Source: a virus. From it: 36,074 bases of DNA. Both the position numbers and the translations under genes were made by a program. The stretch lies in IMG/VR virus record IMGVR_UViG_3300047356_000071, positions 1 through 36,074 of that record, one strand, 5' to 3'. Below, one piece after another: positions 157-9,304 of the stretch. Numbering within the stretch: the stretch's first letter is position 1; every line of letters starts with the position of its first letter. The notes under the pieces are model-generated. The model had not been told where the DNA came from. It worked only from the letters and a program-made list of their open reading frames with translations, and did not search any database.

Positions 157-834
157 CTATCGTGTTAGTTTTGAAAATGTTACAGCGGCAGTCATACTGT
201 TAAGGTCAACGCCAACATCACTGGCATCTTTCTTAACTCGCTCGACTACTTTCTTATGTCGTTCCTTGGCTTCATCAGGAACTAAATCCCACAGTGCAGG
301 CCACGCCTTGATAGCAGGGGCTAACGTAGAATATGTTTCCATGAGTTTATCCACACCCTCAAGGAAGGAAGCCTCTTTAGATTCCTGTTCAAATATCTTA
401 CGGACATACTCTTTGAACTCAGGGATAAGCCATGCCCAACGACTGTCGTTGTAGTCGGCCCTAGAGTTACGCCAGTTGAACTTGAACCCAGTATTCATCT
501 TCTCAATTTCATTAGGCCAACGCATATCCTTGCTGAACTCTAGCCTTACAGTCGAACATTCATACGCTTTCTGCTTGTGTGTAGCAGTTTGGAATACATC
601 CTCTGGTGCATTGAAGAACCCTTCAAAGTCCAGTGATTGCTTCTCTGCCATCACATGGGCAGGCAGTGCATCGAACTTAGCAATGTCATCGGCAGGGAAG
701 AACCCTTGGTATATCTTGTCTGCCCAATGTGCAGGTACATCCGCCTTAGCCTTGTCAATATTCTGCTTGAACATTGCCTTTGCGTTGTTACGAATCTCGC
801 TCTTGAGAGCATCGGAAAATCTTACAGTAGCCAT
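157..834 (-). CDS. Hypothetical protein of the MoxR/VWA operon
   Basis: A 225-residue, charged, apparently soluble protein with no signal peptide or membrane segment. The start at 834 has a GGAGAT ribosome binding site and lies one base from the stop of the VWA gene upstream, so the two are very likely translated from one mRNA. Aromatic and charged clusters occur in the middle (about residues 105-145, including KFNWRNSRADYNDSRWAWLI). I do not recognise a family. Its tight linkage to the AAA+/VWA genes suggests it is an accessory factor or target of that module, which is inference from position only. Confidence 0.8.
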   Translation of the reverse strand: MATVRFSDALKSEIRNNAKAMFKQNIDKAKADVPAHWADKIYQGFFPADDIAKFDALPAHVMAEKQSLDFEGFFNAPEDVFQTATHKQKAYECSTVRLEFSKDMRWPNEIEKMNTGFKFNWRNSRADYNDSRWAWLIPEFKEYVRKIFEQESKEASFLEGVDKLMETYSTLAPAIKAWPALWDLVPDEAKERHKKVVERVKKDASDVGVDLNSMTAAVTFSKLTR

Positions 835-835
835 A

Positions 836-1933
836 TCATATCTCCATCATTACTATTTCACCGAAGGGTGCTTGGTTGTCGTGTGTTGATACCCACAACA
901 CAGGGTATTCTGGTGCGTCACCGAAGTCGCTACAGCACAGGTCTGTCAGGAATACACAAGCGACAGGGTTGATGTCGTTATCTCTCATGTATTGAAACAC
1001 TGGACTGAACGCTGTACCGCCACCGCCATGTGGCTTGATAACTGGTGGTTCACCTTGCTCATACACATCATAGTGACAAACCTCTGAGTCGAAGTAGATG
1101 ATGTGTAGTTTCTGAGGGTGGTGGTCTTGTTGAACCTTGAGTATCTCTGCCGCATACTGGTCAATCTCTTCTTGTCCGATTGAACCTGAGCAGTCGATAG
1201 CAAACGCCATCTCACCCAATGCCTCGCCAGTCACACTAGGTAGATACATACCTTGCTGTATGAACCTGCGATTAGGTCTGGCAAATGAACGGTCATCAGT
1301 CTTGTGCTTGACAATGAAGCGTTGCAGTACATCAGACCAGTGAACCTTGGGTTGAAGAATACTCTCAACCATACGCTCAAGTCCTGCACTCATCTTGCCC
1401 ATCATCTTGGCGGCTTGTGCCGCTTGAGCAACCTTGACTTTCCACTCTGCCGCTTGCTGTTCTTGTTCAGCAGGTGAACCCTCGCCATCCATACAGTTGT
1501 CAAGTGGGTCATTCTCACCCTCTTGTGTCTCTGGTAAGATGTTGTAGATGCCATCACTTGTGCCGTTACCTGCATTGTATATGTCGTCACTGAGCAGGCC
1601 ACAGTCAGGCATCTTGCCAATGTGTTCGTCTACCAACAGTTTGTTGATGACATAATCTGCCGCCTGATTCCACTTACGAGGGTCACGATTCTGGCGTCTG
1701 AAGTTATGCTCCATCATGGGGTGCATACATTCGTGAGCAATGAGAAACTTCATCTCCTCATCATTCAAGTCAGCACAGAAGTCAGGGTTAAACAGGACTT
1801 GCTTGCCGTTAGTGGCGGCAGTAGGCACATCCTCGCTAATCTTGAACGGCATATTCATGGCGACATTGCCGATGAACGGATGCTCAAGAACCAGTGCGGT
1901 CTTGGCTTTACTGAGTCGTTTCGATAGTTCCAT
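836..1933 (-). CDS. VWA-domain protein with putative metallopeptidase domain (DUF2201-like)
   Basis: The protein has 365 residues from the ATG at 1933. That start is chosen over the upstream one at 1972 because GAGGAGG lies seven bases ahead of it. The N-terminal half carries a HExxH motif (HECMH, residues 67-71), as in the DUF2201 putative metallopeptidase family. The C-terminal half is a von Willebrand factor A fold with an intact MIDAS metal site (D247-C-S249-G-S251, then a GGGGTAFSP loop and an FLTDL strand). Proteins of this type work with MoxR AAA+ ATPases as metal-dependent adaptors or chaperones, and N4-like phages carry a similar AAA+/VWA pair. The partner ATPase lies two genes upstream in the same operon. 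Whether the HExxH site is catalytically active cannot be told here. The role in infection is unknown. Confidence 0.85.
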   Translation of the reverse strand: MELSKRLSKAKTALVLEHPFIGNVAMNMPFKISEDVPTAATNGKQVLFNPDFCADLNDEEMKFLIAHECMHPMMEHNFRRQNRDPRKWNQAADYVINKLLVDEHIGKMPDCGLLSDDIYNAGNGTSDGIYNILPETQEGENDPLDNCMDGEGSPAEQEQQAAEWKVKVAQAAQAAKMMGKMSAGLERMVESILQPKVHWSDVLQRFIVKHKTDDRSFARPNRRFIQQGMYLPSVTGEALGEMAFAIDCSGSIGQEEIDQYAAEILKVQQDHHPQKLHIIYFDSEVCHYDVYEQGEPPVIKPHGGGGTAFSPVFQYMRDNDINPVACVFLTDLCCSDFGDAPEYPVLWVSTHDNQAPFGEIVMMEI

Positions 1934-2126
1934 TGTTATCCTCCTCTCTGGATATGTGAATGTCGTAGTCAATACTCTTGAGAATAAGTTCTGCTTTGAC
2001 CATCGGCATATGTTCGAGCAACATTGCTATAAGCATGTCATTATCCATCTGGTGTAGACGGTCATGCCAAACATCCATAGCAGTCTTGCGTGACTGCCAT
2101 AGAGTTTCGATTTCTTTCAGTGTCAT
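1908..2126 (-). CDS. Small hypothetical protein between DUF3150-like and VWA genes
   Basis: A 72-residue protein, mostly helical in appearance, with a Met/Leu-rich middle (DNDMLIAMLLEHMPMVKAEL) and a charged, Thr-rich tail. The start at 2126 has GGGAGGT upstream and overlaps the end of the preceding gene by four bases (ATGA type). Its end overlaps the VWA gene by 26 bases. These overlaps suggest translational coupling within the MoxR/VWA operon. No family is recognised. It may be a small helical subunit or adaptor of the module, but that rests only on its position. Confidence 0.75.
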   Translation of the reverse strand: MTLKEIETLWQSRKTAMDVWHDRLHQMDNDMLIAMLLEHMPMVKAELILKSIDYDIHISREEDNNGTIETTQ

Positions 2127-2977
2127 TGTGTACCTCCCATAAACACACCCATCTTATCCATGATAGCCTTGGCTTCAGCGGCCTTGTCACGGCGTAGGTC
2201 AGGGTCATTGCGTAGTGCATCGGGATGATGCTTGGTCAATGATTGCTCCACCTCAAGACGCATAGCCTCAAGGTTAGGGTCATCAGTGAAGTTGAGCCGT
2301 GACATGACAGCACATATCTCTCTGGTATTCTCGACCAGAGTGTCACGGAATACAGCGGCAGGGTCAGCTAGCTTCTCAGCCATATGCTGAACACGTTCAT
2401 GCAGTCGCTTCCATGCTTCATCCATTGCAGACTGAGCCGCGTCTTGAACACGAGACTCAACGTCAGCAGTGATACGAGCCAACTCATCGTCAGCAATATC
2501 AACTCTGAAGTCACCGCTCGGCACTGGCATGATAGTGACATCCATACCGAACTTGGCAGTAATCTCATCCTTGGATGGATAGTCAGAGTCATTGTATAGA
2601 TTGCCAAGCAGACGCTGAGCGTCATACTTTAGTGACTCATACTCTTGCAGGAACTGATTGACAACCATCTGCCACTCATACTTTTCCTTGCGGAAGTCAG
2701 TCATAAAGGCCAGATAGTTTGCACTCGGCAGTATCTGTGTACCGTCAATGCCCCACGGTAAAGTGTTGGCATAGTACCGCTTGCGGATAAGCGTAGACTT
2801 CTGATGCACATTGGCAAGGAAGTCATTCATAGGTAGCAGAGACTTGTTGTATCTACCCGATTGATTAACCGCAGAGTTTGCAGAGGCCACCTGTTCGGTG
2901 GCTCTCTTGTCGTATTTACGAGCAGTCCATTGGGATATAGACAGCTGAGTGAGTAGTGCTTTGTCTGAAAGTTTCAT
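2123..2977 (-). CDS. DUF3150-like protein of the MoxR/VWA module
   Basis: The protein has 284 residues from the ATG at 2977. That start is chosen over 3025 because GGAGG lies six bases upstream and it avoids most overlap with the ATPase gene. The N-terminal segment (LSISQWTARKYDKRATEQV) resembles the opening of DUF3150 proteins, which are often encoded beside MoxR ATPases and VWA proteins. The middle and C-terminal parts are charged and probably form long helices or coiled coils (about residues 165-240). No catalytic motif or membrane segment is visible. It lies between the ATPase and the VWA gene, which fits a structural or adaptor role in one complex. The family call is from memory of the N-terminal pattern and is moderately sure. 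Confidence 0.8.
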   Translation of the reverse strand: MKLSDKALLTQLSISQWTARKYDKRATEQVASANSAVNQSGRYNKSLLPMNDFLANVHQKSTLIRKRYYANTLPWGIDGTQILPSANYLAFMTDFRKEKYEWQMVVNQFLQEYESLKYDAQRLLGNLYNDSDYPSKDEITAKFGMDVTIMPVPSGDFRVDIADDELARITADVESRVQDAAQSAMDEAWKRLHERVQHMAEKLADPAAVFRDTLVENTREICAVMSRLNFTDDPNLEAMRLEVEQSLTKHHPDALRNDPDLRRDKAAEAKAIMDKMGVFMGGTQ

Positions 2978-2991
2978 TGTTTCCTCCGTTT

Positions 2992-3987
2992 CTAGAACAA
3001 TACATCTTGGTGGTTGATAGCCCACTTGGTGAACGCTTGAGTCGAAGCCAACTCTGGCTTCTTACGAGCCGCATAGGACACCGATAGAACTGAGAACTCA
3101 GGGGGCATACGCTCTGCATAAGTACAGACACGCTCAAAGTTGTTCTCAGTAGCCCGCTCTGCAATAGCGCCAGACAGTGCATACAAAGTAGCAGGGTCAC
3201 TAGGCACATCAGCAGTGGTAGGATTCATAATGATGTTGTCGGGATTAGGTAGCTTACGGTATATACGAACGAATCCAACGAACTCTGCCGCCGCACCCTC
3301 TCCAACTGCACCCTTGAAGCATTCGAACTCAGCATCAGGACTGACTACGCCAAGCACTGCACTGACACCCTCGACCCATGAACGAGGTGTTGGATTCTGG
3401 TCACGCTGAGGGTCAAAGTCATGTAGCAGATTAGGACGGAAGCGTAAGAACGCCACTACCTCGGTTGCTACATTGTTCTCAAGCATCCACTTGGTTGAGT
3501 CATCAAGGTGAGTGTCAAGTTCGATAACAGTCTCACGATTAGCGAGGTGAGATAGGATACGATTAGCACCTGCCCTGTCCTCTTGGCGGTTGCCAGTAGT
3601 GATGACCATCCAACCCTTCTTGAGTGGCACACCATGTAAGGTTCTAGCCTGTTCGATATTGGCTAGCACTTTCTGCAAGTCATTACCTGCTTGGTTACGG
3701 TCATCGAATAGAAGGATACCCTCATCAGGTATGTCAGTACGACCCTCGGCAGGATACCAATCAGGTAGCTTGTAGCCAAACGAATCACCTTGGGTTGCCA
3801 TGTCAGGTATACCGAAGTCCTCTACCAACATAGTAGGCATGTGCTTCTCGATGTATCCAATACTCATCATCTGAGCGGCTGTTCTCACGAGGCTGGTCTT
3901 ACCGCCCCCTGGCTTACCGATGATAGACAACGGACGTTTAATAGGAAATAAATCCTTGATAGTTTGAAGAACCAATTCAGCTCGCAT
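2992..3987 (-). CDS. MoxR-like AAA+ ATPase
   Basis: The protein has 331 residues from the ATG at 3987, chosen because GAGGAG lies eight bases upstream. The ATPase core is clear. Walker A is GKPGGGKTS (residues 24-32), Walker B is ILLFDD (91-96) and sensor 1 is ITTGNR (N133), followed by the NRILSHLANR segment typical of MoxR-type domains. The second acidic residue of Walker B is Asp instead of the usual Glu, which may slow hydrolysis. MoxR ATPases remodel or activate partner proteins together with VWA-domain adaptors, and the VWA gene lies in the same operon. N4-like phages carry a comparable pair of unknown function. The motor role is well supported, but the substrate is unknown. Confidence 0.9.
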   Translation of the reverse strand: MRAELVLQTIKDLFPIKRPLSIIGKPGGGKTSLVRTAAQMMSIGYIEKHMPTMLVEDFGIPDMATQGDSFGYKLPDWYPAEGRTDIPDEGILLFDDRNQAGNDLQKVLANIEQARTLHGVPLKKGWMVITTGNRQEDRAGANRILSHLANRETVIELDTHLDDSTKWMLENNVATEVVAFLRFRPNLLHDFDPQRDQNPTPRSWVEGVSAVLGVVSPDAEFECFKGAVGEGAAAEFVGFVRIYRKLPNPDNIIMNPTTADVPSDPATLYALSGAIAERATENNFERVCTYAERMPPEFSVLSVSYAARKKPELASTQAFTKWAINHQDVLF

Positions 3988-4851: not shown

Positions 4852-5217
4852 TTAGAGCAGGACAATGTTATCGTCCGCTTTCTTGATGTGCTTTACAGGC
4901 CCTGCAATAGTGACCTTAGGCTTGCCCCATTTACCTGCCGCTAGAGTCGCAGTATCACCACGGTCAATAGCGTCCTTGACTGCTGTCTGAGGAAGTTCCT
5001 TAGAGTCACGGTCTAGAGTCTGGTTGACATTGGGGATATAGAAATCCCAACGATTGAATGTTGCCTTAGGATTGGAATCACAGAACGCCATAGCTGACGC
5101 TACAAGTTCACAGATATTGGTGGCATTATACTTGCCCTCATTAGAGGGTTGTAAGTAGAGCATGTTAGTGCCCTTGTTGAATGCCAAGTTAAGATTACCT
5201 TCATAAGTTTTAGCCAT
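4852..5217 (-). CDS. DNIVLL-tail protein, copy 1
   Basis: A 121-residue soluble protein starting at 5217 with GGAGG eight bases upstream. It is a clear paralog of the product of 6302-6664. Both share an FxKGT segment near the N-terminus, a GKYxA motif, an RWxFYIxxVNQxL block in the middle, AGKWGKP near the C-terminus, and the identical last six residues DNIVLL. The short acidic-hydrophobic tail recalls the protein-docking tip of single-stranded DNA-binding proteins, so a DNA-binding or replication-accessory role is possible. That idea is inference only. No known family is recognised with certainty. It is the first gene after the iteron region and has its own candidate promoter. Confidence 0.85.
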   Translation of the reverse strand: MAKTYEGNLNLAFNKGTNMLYLQPSNEGKYNATNICELVASAMAFCDSNPKATFNRWDFYIPNVNQTLDRDSKELPQTAVKDAIDRGDTATLAAGKWGKPKVTIAGPVKHIKKADDNIVLL

Positions 5218-5340: not shown

Positions 5341-5685
5341 CTATCTAGTGTAAGCTTTAGAGTATCTGCCGATGTTTTACAAGAGAGATAGTAAAATGGA
5401 TAGTAAAAACTGTAAAGATATCAAGGCCTTACGATGAAGTATCTAAACTATCTAGTTTTTTAGAGGTTATGTGGTGTTACGCGCAAATAGCAATAACACA
5501 GGATATTTAGTTGTAGAGAAGGGTATAGTTAAAAAAACTATATAATTTAGATAGTTTAGATAGTAATACTGTACATATGGCCCTGTATATCCTGATTCTT
5601 ATGGCTTTTCTCTCAACATGTTGTATAGTTTGGCTATCTAAAACACAGGATATAGTGTAAACTTCCAGTTAGATAGTATAGATAG
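5341..5685. repeat. Iteron-like TAGATAG array, candidate origin or regulatory region
   Basis: The gene-free stretch 5218-5797 contains seven exact copies of TAGATAG or its complement CTATCTA: complement copies at 5341, 5448 and 5634, direct copies at 5548, 5557, 5670 and 5679. Two tandem pairs have a 9-bp period (TTAGATAGT at 5547 and 5556; TTAGATAGT/ATAGATAGT at 5669 and 5678). A related 12-bp tandem, GATAGTAAAA, occurs at 5387 and 5399. The 15-mer at 5441-5455 is an inverted copy (14 of 15 bases) of 5547-5561. The stretch is AT-rich and lies between a leftward terminator and a leftward promoter. Iterons of this kind mark replication origins or binding sites of a phage regulator. Which applies is not known. 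Small open frames here are very short and unsupported. Confidence 0.65.
5495..5653. repeat. AACACAGGATAT repeats
   Basis: The 12-mer AACACAGGATAT occurs at 5495-5506 and 5642-5653, and the inverted core ATATCCTG lies between them at 5587-5594. They are interleaved with the TAGATAG copies, suggesting a second type of binding site in the same region. A further pair, CGAGCTAT at 5707 and 5722, lies just to the right. Confidence 0.5.
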
Positions 5686-5761
5686 TCTCTAATCTTGGTA
5701 TTAAAGCGAGCTATAACCCCCCGAGCTATGGGTCTATATATACAAAATAATAGAAACTTGA

Positions 5762-5793
5762 CACAAAAAGAGAGGGAGCCTTGCGACTCCCCC
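5762..5793 (-). terminator. Rho-independent terminator, leftward
   Basis: Read on the minus strand, GGGGGAG pairs with CTCCCTC (7 bp, one G-U) around an 8-base loop, followed directly by TCTTTTTGTGT. It lies just after the last mini-gene (stop at 5798) and ends the right part of the leftward transcription unit before the iteron region. Confidence 0.7.
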
Positions 5794-5797
5794 TTGG

Positions 5798-5869
5798 TTA
5801 TTTGCCTATCAGTCTTCCGATACGTCTGGACTCTCTAGGTTTACATCTGATTAAGACTGGCTTCGCCAT
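5798..5869 (-). CDS. Possible 23-residue basic peptide
   Basis: A short frame encodes MAKPVLIRCKPRESRRIGRL and three more residues, strongly basic, with GGAG seven bases before the start at 5869. It overlaps the end of the 59-residue membrane gene by 19 bases and stops five bases before the terminator stem, exactly filling the transcript. The fit to the operon end and the ribosome binding site support it, but a gene this short could be chance. If real, it might bind nucleic acid or an acidic host factor. Confidence 0.4.
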   Translation of the reverse strand: MAKPVLIRCKPRESRRIGRLIGK

Positions 5870-6030
5870 AGTAGCACTCCAGCAAACCAGGTTAACATTC
5901 CAATCAATGTGATTAGCGTCCAGATGATTAGTTCGAAGCCGACGATACTGTTATCTGCTTCTATGGTTCCAACTCCAGCCATCATCAGGAAGAATCCAGC
6001 CATACTAAATATAATTGAGAACACTTTCAT
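5851..6030 (-). CDS. Small two-TM membrane protein
   Basis: A 59-residue protein starting MKVFSIIFSMAGFFLMMAGV at 6030 with GGAG eight bases upstream. It has two hydrophobic segments (about residues 3-21 and 34-54) joined by a short acidic loop (EADNS), so it should span the inner membrane twice with both ends on the same side. It lies between two hairpins in the leftward unit. No family recognised. Small early membrane proteins of phages often alter host membrane physiology or block superinfection, but nothing here shows that directly. Confidence 0.6.
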   Translation of the reverse strand: MKVFSIIFSMAGFFLMMAGVGTIEADNSIVGFELIIWTLITLIGMLTWFAGVLLWRSQS

Positions 6031-6056
6031 AGTTTACACTCCAGTTGTTTAGGTTG

Positions 6057-6080
6057 GCTGGGGCGATTGCCCGCCCCAGC
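6057..6080 (-). terminator. Strong GC hairpin between mini-genes
   Basis: GCTGGGGCG (6057-6065) and CGCCCCAGC (6072-6080) form a perfect 9-bp stem with a 6-base loop, seven bases past the stop of the 53-residue gene. No U-tract follows on the leftward transcript, so it is more likely an mRNA-stabilising or processing hairpin than a full terminator. Confidence 0.55.
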
Positions 6081-6087
6081 TTCTTGG

Positions 6088-6249
6088 TTATTGGTGACTC
6101 ACATTCACTTGGTGTTGCGGAATCTGAACTTCGTGGATTAGTTTGAGGGCAAAGTTCTTAGCTGAACCCTCAGTCTTGTACCAGCGGAAGTAAAGTGTTC
6201 CAAACTCAACCCAGTCAACGCGGTAACGTCTTAGCTTTTCTATTTTCAT
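6088..6249 (-). CDS. Small hypothetical protein (53 residues)
   Basis: The frame encodes MKIEKLRRYRVDWVEFGTLY and 33 more residues from the ATG at 6249, with GGAG six bases upstream. It is basic at the start and aromatic in the middle (FRWYK), with no membrane segment. It is flanked on both sides by strong hairpins, giving a regular gene-hairpin-gene layout in this unit. No family recognised. The fold could be a small beta-rich domain, a guess based on the alternating pattern. Confidence 0.6.
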   Translation of the reverse strand: MKIEKLRRYRVDWVEFGTLYFRWYKTEGSAKNFALKLIHEVQIPQHQVNVSHQ

Positions 6250-6269
6250 AGTCGTCTCCAGTTCGAAGC

Positions 6270-6291
6270 GGCTGGAGCCGAAGCTCCAGCC
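6270..6291 (-). terminator. UUCG tetraloop hairpin after DNIVLL copy 2
   Basis: On the leftward transcript GGCTGGAGC pairs with GCTCCAGCC (perfect 9 bp) around a TTCG loop, an extra-stable tetraloop, ten bases past the stop of the second DNIVLL gene. There is no U-tract afterwards, so it probably protects the 3' end of the upstream message or partly ends transcription. Confidence 0.55.
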
Positions 6292-6301
6292 TAGGTTAAG
6301 G

Positions 6302-6664
6302 TTAAAGCAACACGATGTTGTCGTTTTGCTTGGCGGTCGGTGCGGTTGGGTTGACTAGGTCAAGCCTTGGCTTGCCCCACTTTCCAGCTTTTACAACCGG
6401 CTGGAATCCCGCTTTCAGAGCTTTTTCCAGTTCAGCTGGCTTCAGGTTTTCACCGTCTTTCAACTTCTGGTTTACATCTTTGATGTAAAAGCTCCAGCGG
6501 TCTATCGACCCTTTGTTTGCCTTGCCAGCGTCAACCACCAGTTTAGCAACCGCATCAGCGTCTTGTGCTGAATACTTACCATCAACCGCTTTAGCTAAGC
6601 TGATAACCTTTGTTCCCTTGTCGAACTTGACATTGAAACGACCTTCGAAAATACGTGTCTGCAT
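6302..6664 (-). CDS. DNIVLL-tail protein, copy 2
   Basis: A 120-residue protein from the ATG at 6664 (MQTRIFEGRFNVKFDKGTKV). That start is chosen because AAGGAG lies six bases upstream, while the in-frame start at 6682 has none. It is a paralog of the product of 4852-5217, sharing the FxKGT, GKYxA, RWxFYIxxVNQxL and AGKWGKP blocks and the identical DNIVLL end. It is the first gene of the leftward unit beyond the divergent control region, so it is probably strongly or early expressed. Function is unknown. The conserved acidic-hydrophobic tip suggests it docks onto another protein. A single-stranded DNA-binding role is one possibility but is unproven. Confidence 0.85.
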   Translation of the reverse strand: MQTRIFEGRFNVKFDKGTKVISLAKAVDGKYSAQDADAVAKLVVDAGKANKGSIDRWSFYIKDVNQKLKDGENLKPAELEKALKAGFQPVVKAGKWGKPRLDLVNPTAPTAKQNDNIVLL

Positions 6665-6754
6665 GACACACTCCTTATACACCTACGATTTCAAACAGCG
6701 TGGCGGTGTAGGCTTCCCCGCCCGCCGTCGTTGCCGTTCATCAGCAACAACTAC

Positions 6755-6783
6755 ATACAAGCATAACCTGACATAGATGTCAA
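6755..6783 (-). promoter_or_regulatory. Candidate leftward promoter with overlapping inverted repeat
   Basis: On the minus strand TTGACA (6783-6778) is followed after 17 bases by TTGTAT (6760-6755). The -35 lies within the inverted repeat TGACAT-AG-ATGTCA (6769-6782), a candidate operator. This promoter would drive the DNIVLL copy 2 gene about 90 bases downstream. Confidence 0.45.
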
Positions 6784-6818
6784 GTTAGCCTAGTTTTAGG
6801 CAGTTTTGCTAGGGCTTG

Positions 6819-6846
6819 CGCGTCGCCTATCGCGTCGCCTATCGCG
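6819..6846 (+). repeat. 12-bp GC-rich tandem repeat
   Basis: CGCGTCGCCTAT is present twice in exact tandem (6819-6830, 6831-6842), followed by CGCG. It is far more CpG-rich than its surroundings and lies about 160 bases ahead of the terminase genes. It could be part of a packaging-initiation site or a protein-binding site. The rest of 6665-6999 holds promoters, repeats and a G6/C6 pair (6865-6871 and 6893-6898), with no convincing larger gene. Confidence 0.5.
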
Positions 6847-6874
6847 CACTCACACGCAGGCAGGAGGGGGGCAC

Positions 6875-6949
6875 ATGGATTATTTTTTGCAACCCCCCGC
6901 CCATATAAGTAAACCTCACATAACAAGACCCCAAAAAATAAAGATGTAA
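6875..6949 (+). CDS. Possible 24-residue leader peptide
   Basis: A short frame starts at the ATG at 6875 (MDYFLQPPAHISKPHITRPQ) after an unusually strong AGGAGGGGGG sequence, and stops at 6949, about 50 bases ahead of the small terminase. It could be a leader peptide of the rightward unit, or the purine run may have another purpose. It would need a promoter upstream of 6860, and none is obvious. Confidence 0.2.
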   Translation: MDYFLQPPAHISKPHITRPQKIKM

Positions 6950-6963
6950 AGTTAGCATAATGC

Positions 6964-6993
6964 TTGACAGCTCCGTAACTTACAGACTAGGAT
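6964..6993 (+). promoter_or_regulatory. Candidate rightward late promoter
   Basis: TTGACA (6964-6969), an 18-base spacer and TAGGAT (6988-6993) form a sigma-70-type promoter immediately ahead of the small terminase gene. The predicted transcript would start within a few bases of the ATG at 7000, implying a leaderless or nearly leaderless message. Confidence 0.45.
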
Positions 6994-6999
6994 TGCCTC

Positions 7000-7506
7000 A
7001 TGGATACGTTACCGCTTAAACATACCAAGTGGTCTGATCGCTTAGCGATGGACATGGCACTGATGCTAGAAGGAAGCGGCGAGACTTTGGATGAAGTCAA
7101 AGATCGCCACAGCCTGAAGGTAGAAGAGCTGCTTGTATTTAATAAAGACCCTGTGTTTTTGAAAAAGGTCGAGTCTTACCGCGACGAAGTTCGTGAAAAA
7201 GGTATGACGTTTAAACTTAAAGCCAGAGCACAGGCGGAAGAACTCTTAACAACAAGTTGGACTTTGATCCACAGCCCAGATGTTTCTGCGGCTGTAAAAG
7301 CTGATCTTATTAAGTCTACTGTTAAGTGGGGCGGCTTAGAGCCTAAGAACGAAGTAAACGCGGAGGGTGCAAGTGGCGGAGTTAAAATTACAATTAACCT
7401 CGGGGGTCAAGACTTCCCAGCGACTGTCGTTGATCACGAACCTATTGACGAAGTTTACACAGAAGGAGAAGGGGCAGAAGATGGCAACCTTCTCAACACT
7501 GGATGA
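7000..7506 (+). CDS. terS: Terminase small subunit (likely)
   Basis: A 168-residue protein, the first gene of the rightward late unit, two small genes ahead of the large terminase. The N-terminal half has the look of a helix-turn-helix DNA-recognition domain (about residues 12-50, with SGETLDEVKDRHSLKVEELL), followed by long charged helices (55-115) that in small terminases build the oligomeric ring. The C-terminal tail is acidic, as often needed to dock on the large subunit. Small terminases recognise the packaging site and regulate the motor. The call rests on position, size and architecture, not on a diagnostic motif. Only a weak AGGA precedes the ATG at 7000. Confidence 0.75.
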   Translation: MDTLPLKHTKWSDRLAMDMALMLEGSGETLDEVKDRHSLKVEELLVFNKDPVFLKKVESYRDEVREKGMTFKLKARAQAEELLTTSWTLIHSPDVSAAVKADLIKSTVKWGGLEPKNEVNAEGASGGVKITINLGGQDFPATVVDHEPIDEVYTEGEGAEDGNLLNTG

Positions 7507-7768
7507 GTGCGAGCGCTGTGCGGCAATTTTGCTGCAGCTGAACGTACGTTATAAGCAGAAGATCCGAAGAAAGAAGAATGTGGAAAAACCTTATGCAGTA
7601 ATACTTCTTGATAATGTTGATCTTCTGCTTGCTCAAACTGAAGTGTCTGAGCAGTGTCCGCATTGCGGGGAGAACACTATAGAGTATCAGTGGTGTAAGT
7701 ATTGTGGGGATATAACACATTTAGATGAGTATGAGTCATATGCTAATAAGATGGGATGGCACGGGTAA
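7481..7768 (+). CDS. Zinc-ribbon-like small protein between terminase genes
   Basis: A 95-residue protein from the ATG at 7481 (MATFSTLDECERCAAILLQL), chosen because GGAG lies upstream and it overlaps the end of the small terminase by only 26 bases. The longer frame from 7367 would lie deep inside that gene. The C-terminal half contains a CPHC...CKYC pair, a likely zinc ribbon, and an N-terminal CERC pair is also present. The protein is charged and soluble. A nucleic-acid-binding or packaging-accessory role is suggested by location and zinc ribbon. No family recognised. Confidence 0.75.
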   Translation: MATFSTLDECERCAAILLQLNVRYKQKIRRKKNVEKPYAVILLDNVDLLLAQTEVSEQCPHCGENTIEYQWCKYCGDITHLDEYESYANKMGWHG

Positions 7769-7781
7769 GAACGCGGCCAAC

Positions 7782-7928
7782 ATGACAGTAGAAGAATTTG
7801 CGTTGGAGCTGCAGCGTATAAAGCACAGGACGTTGTATATTGATACGACTGCTGCTGGGCGAGACGCGGCTAAACGTACGCGCAGTTATAGGAATGCTAG
7901 GCGGGGAGCGTTTGGCAAATGGCATTAG
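7782..7928 (+). CDS. Small basic protein ahead of large terminase
   Basis: A 48-residue basic protein starting MTVEEFALELQRIKHRTLYI at 7782 and ending with an Arg-rich stretch (AAKRTRSYRNARRGAFGKWH). In-frame starts at 7725 and 7740 would lengthen it but overlap the zinc-ribbon gene and have no ribosome binding site. The stop overlaps the large terminase start by ten bases, consistent with coupling. The basic tail may bind DNA. No family recognised and the start is uncertain. Confidence 0.55.
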   Translation: MTVEEFALELQRIKHRTLYIDTTAAGRDAAKRTRSYRNARRGAFGKWH

Positions 7929-9304
7929 ATATTAACTTTACACCATCACGAACTGCAGCGAAGTTTATGCAGTCAGACTCTAAGATGCGTGTACTGATGG
8001 GGCCGGTTGGGTCTGGTAAATCTGTTGCAAGTTGTTTTGAGATTGTGCGTCGGGCGAGTGCGCAGGAGCCGAACGAACAAGGTATACGTAAATCGCGGTG
8101 CGCTGTTGTGCGTGAGACTGTACGCCAGCTAACAGATACTACAATTAAAACGTTTCTTGATTGGTTCCCACCTGGGGTGTGCGGCCAGTTCATGCGGACG
8201 ACCAAGACATACTTCTTTAAGGTTGGCGATGTTGAGTGCGAGATTATGTTTCGTGCGCTCGATGATGCTGACGATGTTGCAAACTTGAACTCTCTTGAGC
8301 TTACCTTCGCGTGGTTTAACGAGTGTAGGGATATCAACGCCGAAATCGTAGACGCGATGTCTAAACGTATCGGGCGTTTTCCATCTAAGAAAGATGGCGG
8401 GCCTTCTTGGTTTGGTATGTGGGGTGACACTAACCCCCCGACTATGGACACATGGTGGTATTATCAGATGGAGCACTTAGACGCTAAGGATGGCGTCAGT
8501 TATAATGACAACGGGTGGGATGTGTTTAAGCAACCGTCCGGACGTAGCACTTTTGCAGAGAATGTGGAGAACTTACCAGATGGATATTATGACACCCAAG
8601 GGCGCAGCGAAGAATATATACGGGTCTTCATTGACGGAGAGTACGGACTTAGCTCCGCAGGTCAGCCAGTCTATAAGTATTTCAGACCGGACTATCACAT
8701 GGCTGGGGAGACTTTGCGTCCTATTCTCAATGGGGTGCGTCCTATCGTTATCGGTATGGATTTGGGGTTGACTCCAGCAGCAGTAATCGGGCAACAAGAT
8801 CCTCGCGGGCGAGTCCTAATTCTCGATGAGGCAGTGTCTTTTGACATGGGGGTTCAGAGATTCGTCCGCACGATTCTCAAACCTATGGTATACGAACGAT
8901 TTAGCGGTGCGCCGATCCTTGTGGTTGTTGACCCAGCTGGTATTCAGCGTGCCCAGACAGATGAACGATCAGCGGTTGACATCATTAAAGCCGAAGGGTT
9001 TAGGGTCATACCGGCAAAAACAAACAATGTGTCAGCAAGATTGTCTTCAGTAGATGATTATCTTATGCGTCATGTGGACGGCGATAGCGCGTTCCTACTT
9101 GACCCTAAGTGCTCACAACTTAAAGCAGCTATGATGGGTGGGTATAGGTTCCACCATAAGAATGGCAACATTGACAAAAATAATCATTCCCACGTAGCTG
9201 AAGCTTTACAATACTTTATGTTACATGTAGCGACAGCTGGCGAGGGTTCTTTCATGCCTATGCGGCGGGAAGTTAAAAGGGTTGCAGCATCAGGTTGGAC
9301 TTGA
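7919..9304 (+). CDS. terL: Terminase large subunit
   Basis: The protein has 461 residues and combines the packaging ATPase with the headful/cos nuclease. Walker A is GPVGSGKS (residues 28-35). The Walker B region is LTFAWFNE (128-135) with Glu135 as the likely catalytic carboxylate. The position normally held by Asp is Asn. The RNase H-like nuclease has Asp281 (MDLGLTP), Asp338 (VVVDPAG) and a C-terminal HVAEAL (Glu428), matching the usual three acidic metal ligands. It docks on the portal vertex and pumps DNA into the procapsid using ATP. It overlaps the preceding small gene and is followed by a terminator. The call is secure. Confidence 0.95.
   Translation: MALDINFTPSRTAAKFMQSDSKMRVLMGPVGSGKSVASCFEIVRRASAQEPNEQGIRKSRCAVVRETVRQLTDTTIKTFLDWFPPGVCGQFMRTTKTYFFKVGDVECEIMFRALDDADDVANLNSLELTFAWFNECRDINAEIVDAMSKRIGRFPSKKDGGPSWFGMWGDTNPPTMDTWWYYQMEHLDAKDGVSYNDNGWDVFKQPSGRSTFAENVENLPDGYYDTQGRSEEYIRVFIDGEYGLSSAGQPVYKYFRPDYHMAGETLRPILNGVRPIVIGMDLGLTPAAVIGQQDPRGRVLILDEAVSFDMGVQRFVRTILKPMVYERFSGAPILVVVDPAGIQRAQTDERSAVDIIKAEGFRVIPAKTNNVSARLSSVDDYLMRHVDGDSAFLLDPKCSQLKAAMMGGYRFHHKNGNIDKNNHSHVAEALQYFMLHVATAGEGSFMPMRREVKRVAASGWT

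Follow-up and report, generated by a model that had tools for sequence, protein, structure and literature searches.

In MoxR-VWA pairs and in midasin (Rea1/Mdn1), an AAA+ ring pulls on or reshapes a partner that is held through the metal ion-dependent adhesion site (MIDAS) of a VWA domain, and protein complexes are remodelled. Midasin is a single giant chain that acts in eukaryotic ribosome assembly and has no HExxH peptidase domain. A related pair of separate genes is already known in phages. In coliphage N4 (Schitoviridae), the AAA ATPase and vWFA protein, gp24 and gp25, are listed as being of unknown function (PMC2784036), while group 2.2 jumbo phages carry a MoxR-vWA pair with an N-terminal metallopeptidase, for which a role in the virion has been proposed (PMC7824862). 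Ternary MoxR-vWA conflict systems, in which MoxR and a vWA protein with an effector-position domain are joined by a third component, are also described (PMC7159879). The subject here is a set of five genes, A, D, s, V, and N, at the left end of a marine phage fragment of 36,074 bases from IMG/VR (IMGVR_UViG_3300047356_000071, positions 1 to 36,074; the window in what follows), in which such an ATPase (A) and VWA/metallopeptidase gene (V) occur together with a DUF3150-like gene (D). The A-D-V triad recurs outside phages, on conjugative plasmids and also at chromosomal loci of bacteria, and this is the new element here. There appears to be an even chance that A-D-V is a machine of mobile DNA, made of three parts and driven by ATP, that remodels proteins and has an early role on a cytoplasmic target and not one in virion building only.

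The five genes are on the minus strand, opposite to the structural genes; the plus-strand genes of the window include those for terminase, a portal/head-tail adaptor protein, the major head protein, a virion structural protein, a tail fibre, and an internal virion protein. The features are as follows.

2992..3987, minus strand: gene A, a MoxR/midasin-type AAA+ ATPase of 331 residues (PHROG 1297 ATPase, 4e-69; midasin AAA domains in PDB, 7e-33)
3895..3918, minus strand: Walker A motif of gene A, GKPGGGKT, from direct reading of the sequence
2123..2977, minus strand: gene D, a predicted helical protein of the DUF3150 family, 284 residues (AlphaFold model, bacterial orthologues, homologue in phage MinM2)
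1908..2126, minus strand: gene s, a 72-residue accessory gene between D and V (in 23/80 related contigs)
836..1933, minus strand: gene V, a fusion of DUF2201_N zincin-like (HExxH) and DUF2201 VWA domains, 365 residues (Pfam PF13203, PF09967)
1721..1735, minus strand: HExxH motif of gene V, HECMH, from direct reading; conserved in relatives
1181..1195, minus strand: MIDAS motif DxSxS of gene V, DCSGS, from direct reading; conserved in relatives
1013-1015 and 941-943, minus strand: further MIDAS residues of gene V, T307 and D331 respectively, both intact on direct reading
157..834, minus strand: gene N, an Nmad5-like protein of 225 residues (PF18757 and phrog_1965 matches in relatives, fold matches)

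An earlier note on this DNA had described all five genes, and all are present where it placed them, each preceded by a purine-rich stretch resembling a ribosome-binding site. Such stretches were used in picking the start codons. The start of D is taken as the ATG at 2977, which has GGAGG in front of it, and not the upstream GTG at 3025, which does not; with this start, there are 14 nt between A and D. The D-s overlap is 4 nt and the s-V overlap 26 nt, so the overlapping order given in the earlier note holds for these genes and not for A and D. The 225-residue gene does follow the VWA gene after a single base (834/836), as had been noted, and it lies outside the coordinates 836-3987 that had been assigned to the module.

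Gene V is a DUF2201 VWA-metallopeptidase by family, with both PF13203 (N-terminal putative metallopeptidase domain, 7e-46) and PF09967 (VWA-like, 8e-24) above the Pfam cut-offs and with HExxH and MIDAS intact. Across 31 relatives both histidines of HExxH are invariant and the glutamate is nearly so, and DxSxS is present in 192/192 full-length relatives. Indeed, the histidines and the MIDAS residues are kept from the phage family of the window through to N4-like, jumbo, and Thermus phages. The V profile has a weak match in PDB (0.002) to MJ1213, a small metallopeptidase. PHROG 1314 and many GenBank records call this gene an HNH endonuclease, or a homing endonuclease; in Pfam searches the protein is covered by DUF2201_N and DUF2201, with no HNH family matched, and this widely used label is unsupported and looks wrong.

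For gene A, the family profile matches the midasin AAA domains in PDB at 7e-33, as against 2e-8 for the next AAA protein, making midasin, whose MIDAS domain grips clients, the closest solved relative. The single sequence matches Pfam AAA_5 at 0.002. Residues G27, G29, and K30 of the Walker A motif are invariant in 23 diverse relatives, while a comparison of Walker B by regular expression had too many misses and was set aside. The Walker A motif and the midasin match bear out the earlier reading of A as a MoxR-type AAA+ ATPase, as the Pfam families and intact motifs do that of V as a VWA/metallopeptidase.

The D protein of the window has no Pfam DUF3150 hit by itself. Among 26 relatives of D, 8 have weak matches to DUF3150 (PF11348), and the D orthologues at two bacterial A/V loci score 33.3 and 27.4 bits, above the cut-off of 24.9; these bacterial proteins are tied to D by the coordinates of the D genes at the same A/V loci. 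The homologue in phage MinM2 carries a DUF3150 annotation. The window protein would then be a DUF3150 member by transitivity only, through its relatives, and it is in this sense that the earlier description of it as DUF3150-like can be kept, since it is not demonstrable from the window protein alone. AlphaFold models D as a protein made up mostly of helices (pLDDT 81, pTM 0.51), and PDB fold searches with this model and with that of N returned nothing significant.

Conservation of the locus in related uncultivated phages was surveyed in 80 IMG/VR contigs that carry V at 60-99% identity. Both A and D are present, on the same strand, in 56/56 contigs with more than 2.5 kb of upstream flank, and N is present, also on the same strand, in 69/69 with more than 1.5 kb of downstream flank. 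The A-D-V order is kept within this phage family, and conservation of the neighbourhood is far beyond chance. The absence of a conserved neighbourhood in related phages, which the earlier note held would count against a shared complex, is therefore not what is seen. The overlaps that it took to be conserved are not, with a median gap between V and N of 190 nt (more than 400 nt in 30/76) and with gene s, found in only 23 of the contigs, being optional. What co-occurs is the A-D-V unit, while N is confined to the phage lineage of the window among the loci seen. The early region looks collinear in the two long relatives read, and the contigs therefore show only that one phage family has a stable operon, not that there is a functional complex. 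Megablast of window positions 1-24000 against phage records gave no match.

The evidence from outside this family is of a different kind. In 80 bacterial loci with V, the order is A-D-V in 43, D-A-V in 4, and A-V-D in 4 (one with a split V), with 18 having A and V only. There are no fusions between A, D, and V. That the orders are rearranged while adjacency is retained is the best sequence evidence here that the three work together. V is about 28–40% and D about 30–41% identical to the window proteins in these triads, which are found in conjugative plasmids of the Burkholderiaceae and in Acidobacteria, Bacteroidota, and others; they differ from the window in the permuted orders, the lack of N, and the adjoining type IV secretion system (T4SS) or PRTRC genes. 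A search anchored on D in 199-200 genomes of each of two bacterial groups (399 in total) found it in 3 + 3 genomes, the query genome being included in each case. Five of the seven D hits have A and V adjoining (V partly cut off in one), one is a partial D with V, and one is weak and alone. The distribution of D is thus patchy, at about 1-2% of the genomes sampled.

Among plasmid records, 44 have D and 59 have V, with 41/44 of those with D having both and 16/44 being typed as conjugative, although many of the records are related and these counts are not independent. V is 25-118 nt behind D in the 18 plasmids measured. The genes directly after V in plasmids and chromosomal loci of the Burkholderiaceae are those for VirB11, VirB2/3/4/6, a TraI-domain protein, and TraD. 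A PRTRC cassette is present several kb upstream in the two plasmids read, and PRTRC genes are near the acidobacterial triads. The triad neighbours a PRTRC cassette (ParB-related and ThiF-related genes) in L224 and L226 (Burkholderia and Paraburkholderia plasmids) and in L138, L139, L141, L144, and L146. On this proximity, the triad and the PRTRC cassette may be functionally linked. The leading families around 20 bacterial loci are type IV secretion components, the DNA polymerase III beta clamp (an extra copy), conjugative transposon proteins, and ParB; of the best 25 of 42 families, none is a capsid, tail, or terminase family. A relaxase and a coupling protein are also among the bacterial neighbours. 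Of 45 bacterial loci longer than 15 kb, 16 have T4SS or PRTRC genes akin to those on one Burkholderia plasmid. The gene neighbourhoods of the bacterial triads point to mobile elements, which the patchy occurrence fits.

In a quick tree of V, where long branches make the details unsure, the window clade (27 rows) belongs to a supported group that also holds bacterial and plasmid-type V proteins, and those of N4-like and jumbo phages branch elsewhere. From this grouping, the cassette appears to have passed between phages and mobile elements of other kinds. The description of the locus in the earlier note as a phage module is therefore too narrow, the triad not being phage-specific. In the open-licence literature searched, the DUF3150 triad, its permuted orders, and its conjugative-element setting are not described and no paper naming DUF3150 was found; the titles and abstracts of papers naming PRTRC do not address the triad neighbourhood.

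Within phages, V relatives were found in 562 records, mostly N4-like (gp25) and jumbo phages, and the ATPase is near V, or one further gene group away, in all of the loci read. As the earlier note had supposed, the N4-like pair is related: the ATPase gp24 is homologous to A and gp25, a DUF2201 VWA/HExxH protein, to V, and the two genes are side by side or close together in the non-structural region. The N4-like V is about 30% identical to that of the window. The N4-like and jumbo phage loci read have A and V; with an extended profile no D was found in the N4-like, jumbo, CRP-7, or phiFa loci, and only the cyanophage-type locus was positive. D is present in Synechococcus phage MinM2 (1e-82 with the extended profile) and two Planktothrix phages, with A, D, and V together in both such loci read. 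These have the same three families in the same order as the window, although with extra genes between them and with no Nmad5 gene found.

In a relative with a V 91% identical to that of the window, N is followed leftward in the same unit by two genes of unknown function, a DUF6378 protein, a family A DNA polymerase, a PD-(D/E)XK exonuclease, an endonuclease-like protein, an SNF2 helicase, a Mu-Gam-like protein, and a DUF927 primase/helicase. The A-D-V module thus heads a transcription unit with DNA polymerase, nuclease, helicase, and primase genes in this family. In further phages, N4-like ones among them, genes close to A and V encode a Dda-like helicase, DNA polymerase, dCTP deaminase, thymidylate synthase (thyA), or RNase H, and a replication region is the site of the module in most of the phage loci examined.

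These locations bear on the role proposed for the jumbo phage pair, in which the MoxR-vWA chaperone would fold or assemble structural proteins and the metallopeptidase would process them. This was put forward by Iyer et al. 2021 by analogy with the tail chaperones of the archaeal virus ATV (PMC7824862), and the pair of jumbo phage Atu_ph07, which has the same domain architecture in both proteins, belongs to the family studied here. The jumbo pair has no D, however, and that of Atu_ph07 has a degenerate HExxH (HQILH, that is HQxxH), and its peptidase may therefore be inactive. That the same genes, together with D, often occur on conjugative plasmids or integrative elements, where type IV secretion and PRTRC genes are neighbours and no virion genes were seen close by, and that phage copies are mostly in replication regions and not in structural ones, argues against a purely virion role. 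A virion assembly or maturation machine is therefore an unlikely explanation, and of the three roles suggested in the earlier note, host takeover, defence evasion, and virion maturation, the last has become less likely.

In the favoured reading of A-D-V as a remodelling machine of mobile DNA, gene A would be the MoxR/midasin-type AAA+ ring motor and gene V its co-factor, with the VWA domain using its intact MIDAS metal site to hold a partner or target by an acidic residue, and with the HExxH domain at the N-terminus cutting or binding the protein so held. On their adjacency, A and V are a candidate MoxR-VWA chaperone pair of the RavA-ViaA type. D is most simply an adaptor, since it is predicted to be helical and is nearly always beside V, and it would accompany only those V proteins with an intact HExxH. 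The machine would act during the establishment or replication of incoming DNA, dismantling or cleaving a cytoplasmic protein or a protein-DNA complex. The putative connection between D and HExxH comes from bacterial V proteins, where the catalytic glutamate is present in 56/56 with D and lost in 11/22 without D, the histidines being mostly kept (Fisher test 9e-8, kinship ignored). The D-less Atu_ph07 (L007) has likewise lost the glutamate. Motifs that have lost it and kept the histidines (HQILH, HTVMH, HLVMH) are those of L007 and of the Desulfobacterota-type L157, L159, L165, L166, L173, L179, L182, L187, and L212. This pattern suggests that D belongs with a predicted active peptidase, and it is kept as a lead.

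Several observations weigh against this reading. Most of the glutamate losses are in one Desulfobacterota clade, and in a kinship-aware test the link with D is not significant, there being about 5 changes and an insufficient number of independent pairs. HExxH is retained in N4-like phages, which have no D, and three Manganitrophus plasmids have D without a detected V. In Staphylococcus phage Madawaska, the A-V pair is beside a baseplate gene on the other strand. Furthermore, location in an early-type region is by itself no proof of early action, and nearby conjugative genes alone do not tell the function of the module.

The anatomy of the triad also resembles that of the ternary MoxR-vWA systems of multicellular bacteria, in which the vWA protein has an N-terminal effector-position domain that is sometimes a metallopeptidase (PMC7159879). 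The triad could then be a conflict cassette with which mobile elements act against competitors, by MoxR-gated release of the vWA-fused effector peptidase with D as the third component. The patchy distribution of D would fit this, as would an A-V pair on the Synechocystis plasmid pSYSA near CRISPR-Cas and toxin-antitoxin genes. The resemblance is partial, the third component being DUF3150-like with no Pfam matches to VMAP, iSTAND, or FtsH, and the carriage being by phages and conjugative elements, so that the triad is not placed among those systems. Hypervariable effectors, VMAP, and iSTAND were not found, PADLOC profiles match none of V, N, and s and give only weak AAA or coiled-coil matches to A and D, and the gene set is conserved throughout a phage family. 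A defence role of this kind is quite unlikely.

Gene N differs from the triad in its distribution. PF18757 (Nmad5) is matched by 18/36 members of the N family (best 3e-6) and phrog_1965 by 21/36 (best 5e-7), but the window N scores 14.7 bits against PF18757, below the gathering score of 27, and no phage relative of N among those searched reaches the cut-off; it is for this reason called Nmad5-like only. The AlphaFold model of N is confident (pLDDT 86), with BFVD fold matches including several proteins named Nmad (nucleotide-modification-associated). Tblastn with N and its two most Nmad5-like relatives found no match in phages, and the link to Nmad5 is therefore through profiles and fold comparison only, which support N being remotely akin to Nmad5. 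An N profile found nothing in seven reference phages, in a search that had no positive control. There is no N-like gene in any of the bacterial loci with the triad. A loose recurrence of Nmad5 with ATPase/VWA phages is seen in the N4-like Vibrio phage 1.097.O, where an Nmad5 gene over the cut-off is 857 nt downstream of the ATPase, and in phage JSF3, where an Nmad5-like gene is behind the DNA polymerase.

The constant presence of N in the flanked phage contigs and these two phages would suit a role in counter-defence or host takeover, in which N is a protein of the DNA-modification type and A-D-V either assists it or takes away a host inhibitor. In a Dhillonvirus, a point mutation of nmad5 changes sensitivity to Tmn defence (PMC11846954), which makes N interesting but does not explain it. 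Nmad5 proteins occur in other kinds of phage too, however, and their activity is itself only predicted; no DNA-modification enzymes were found among the other early genes scanned in two near-complete relatives, and the bacterial triads lack N. An N-inclusive role is very unlikely, and N is a phage-specific neighbour that may be a client of the putative complex, a partner in it, or unrelated to it.

Gene s has no credible match to Pfam or PHROG profiles. Elsewhere on the minus strand of the window, the genes at 4852-5217 and 6302-6664 are diverged paralogues (36% identity over 119 residues), both ending in DNIVLL and neither with a Pfam family. The plasmid of Candidatus Manganitrophus (L230) has a second context for DUF3150, at 5347-9124, where it is with AAA ATPase, DUF1257, and DUF2997 genes and no detected VWA gene. 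The pair on pSYSA (L228, 8955-11233), to which the Sll7028-type gene belongs, is a MoxR/VWA pair without D, and both CRISPR-Cas and several toxin-antitoxin genes are found on the same plasmid. The Acinetobacter plasmid pRBH2-3 (L229), a 75-kb replicon that is possibly a plasmid-like phage, has a MoxR/VWA pair near a DNA-directed RNA polymerase and a toprim gene.

A broader form of the remodelling-machine reading, for which the chance appears small, would have phages and conjugative plasmids sharing a mobilome-wide ATP-driven peptidase for removing an obstacle that both kinds of element meet when their DNA enters or replicates. The obstacle might, just as doubtfully, be a host defence complex, a nucleoid complex, or a protein stuck on DNA, and the peptidase could be pictured, with similar reserve, as a midasin divided into separate proteins, equipped with a metalloprotease of its own and with DUF3150 as a dedicated adaptor. 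Relatives of V, including that of N4, had no assigned role, and HExxH, MIDAS, and Walker A now provide concrete residues to target, with coliphage N4 and conjugative plasmids as tractable models. The recurrence of DUF3150 as a third partner, and of the triad beside transfer genes, moves the search from virion assembly to functions that are common to phages and plasmids. The presence of the triad on conjugative plasmids in distant bacteria suggests that it may help invading DNA to establish, beyond the building of virus particles alone.

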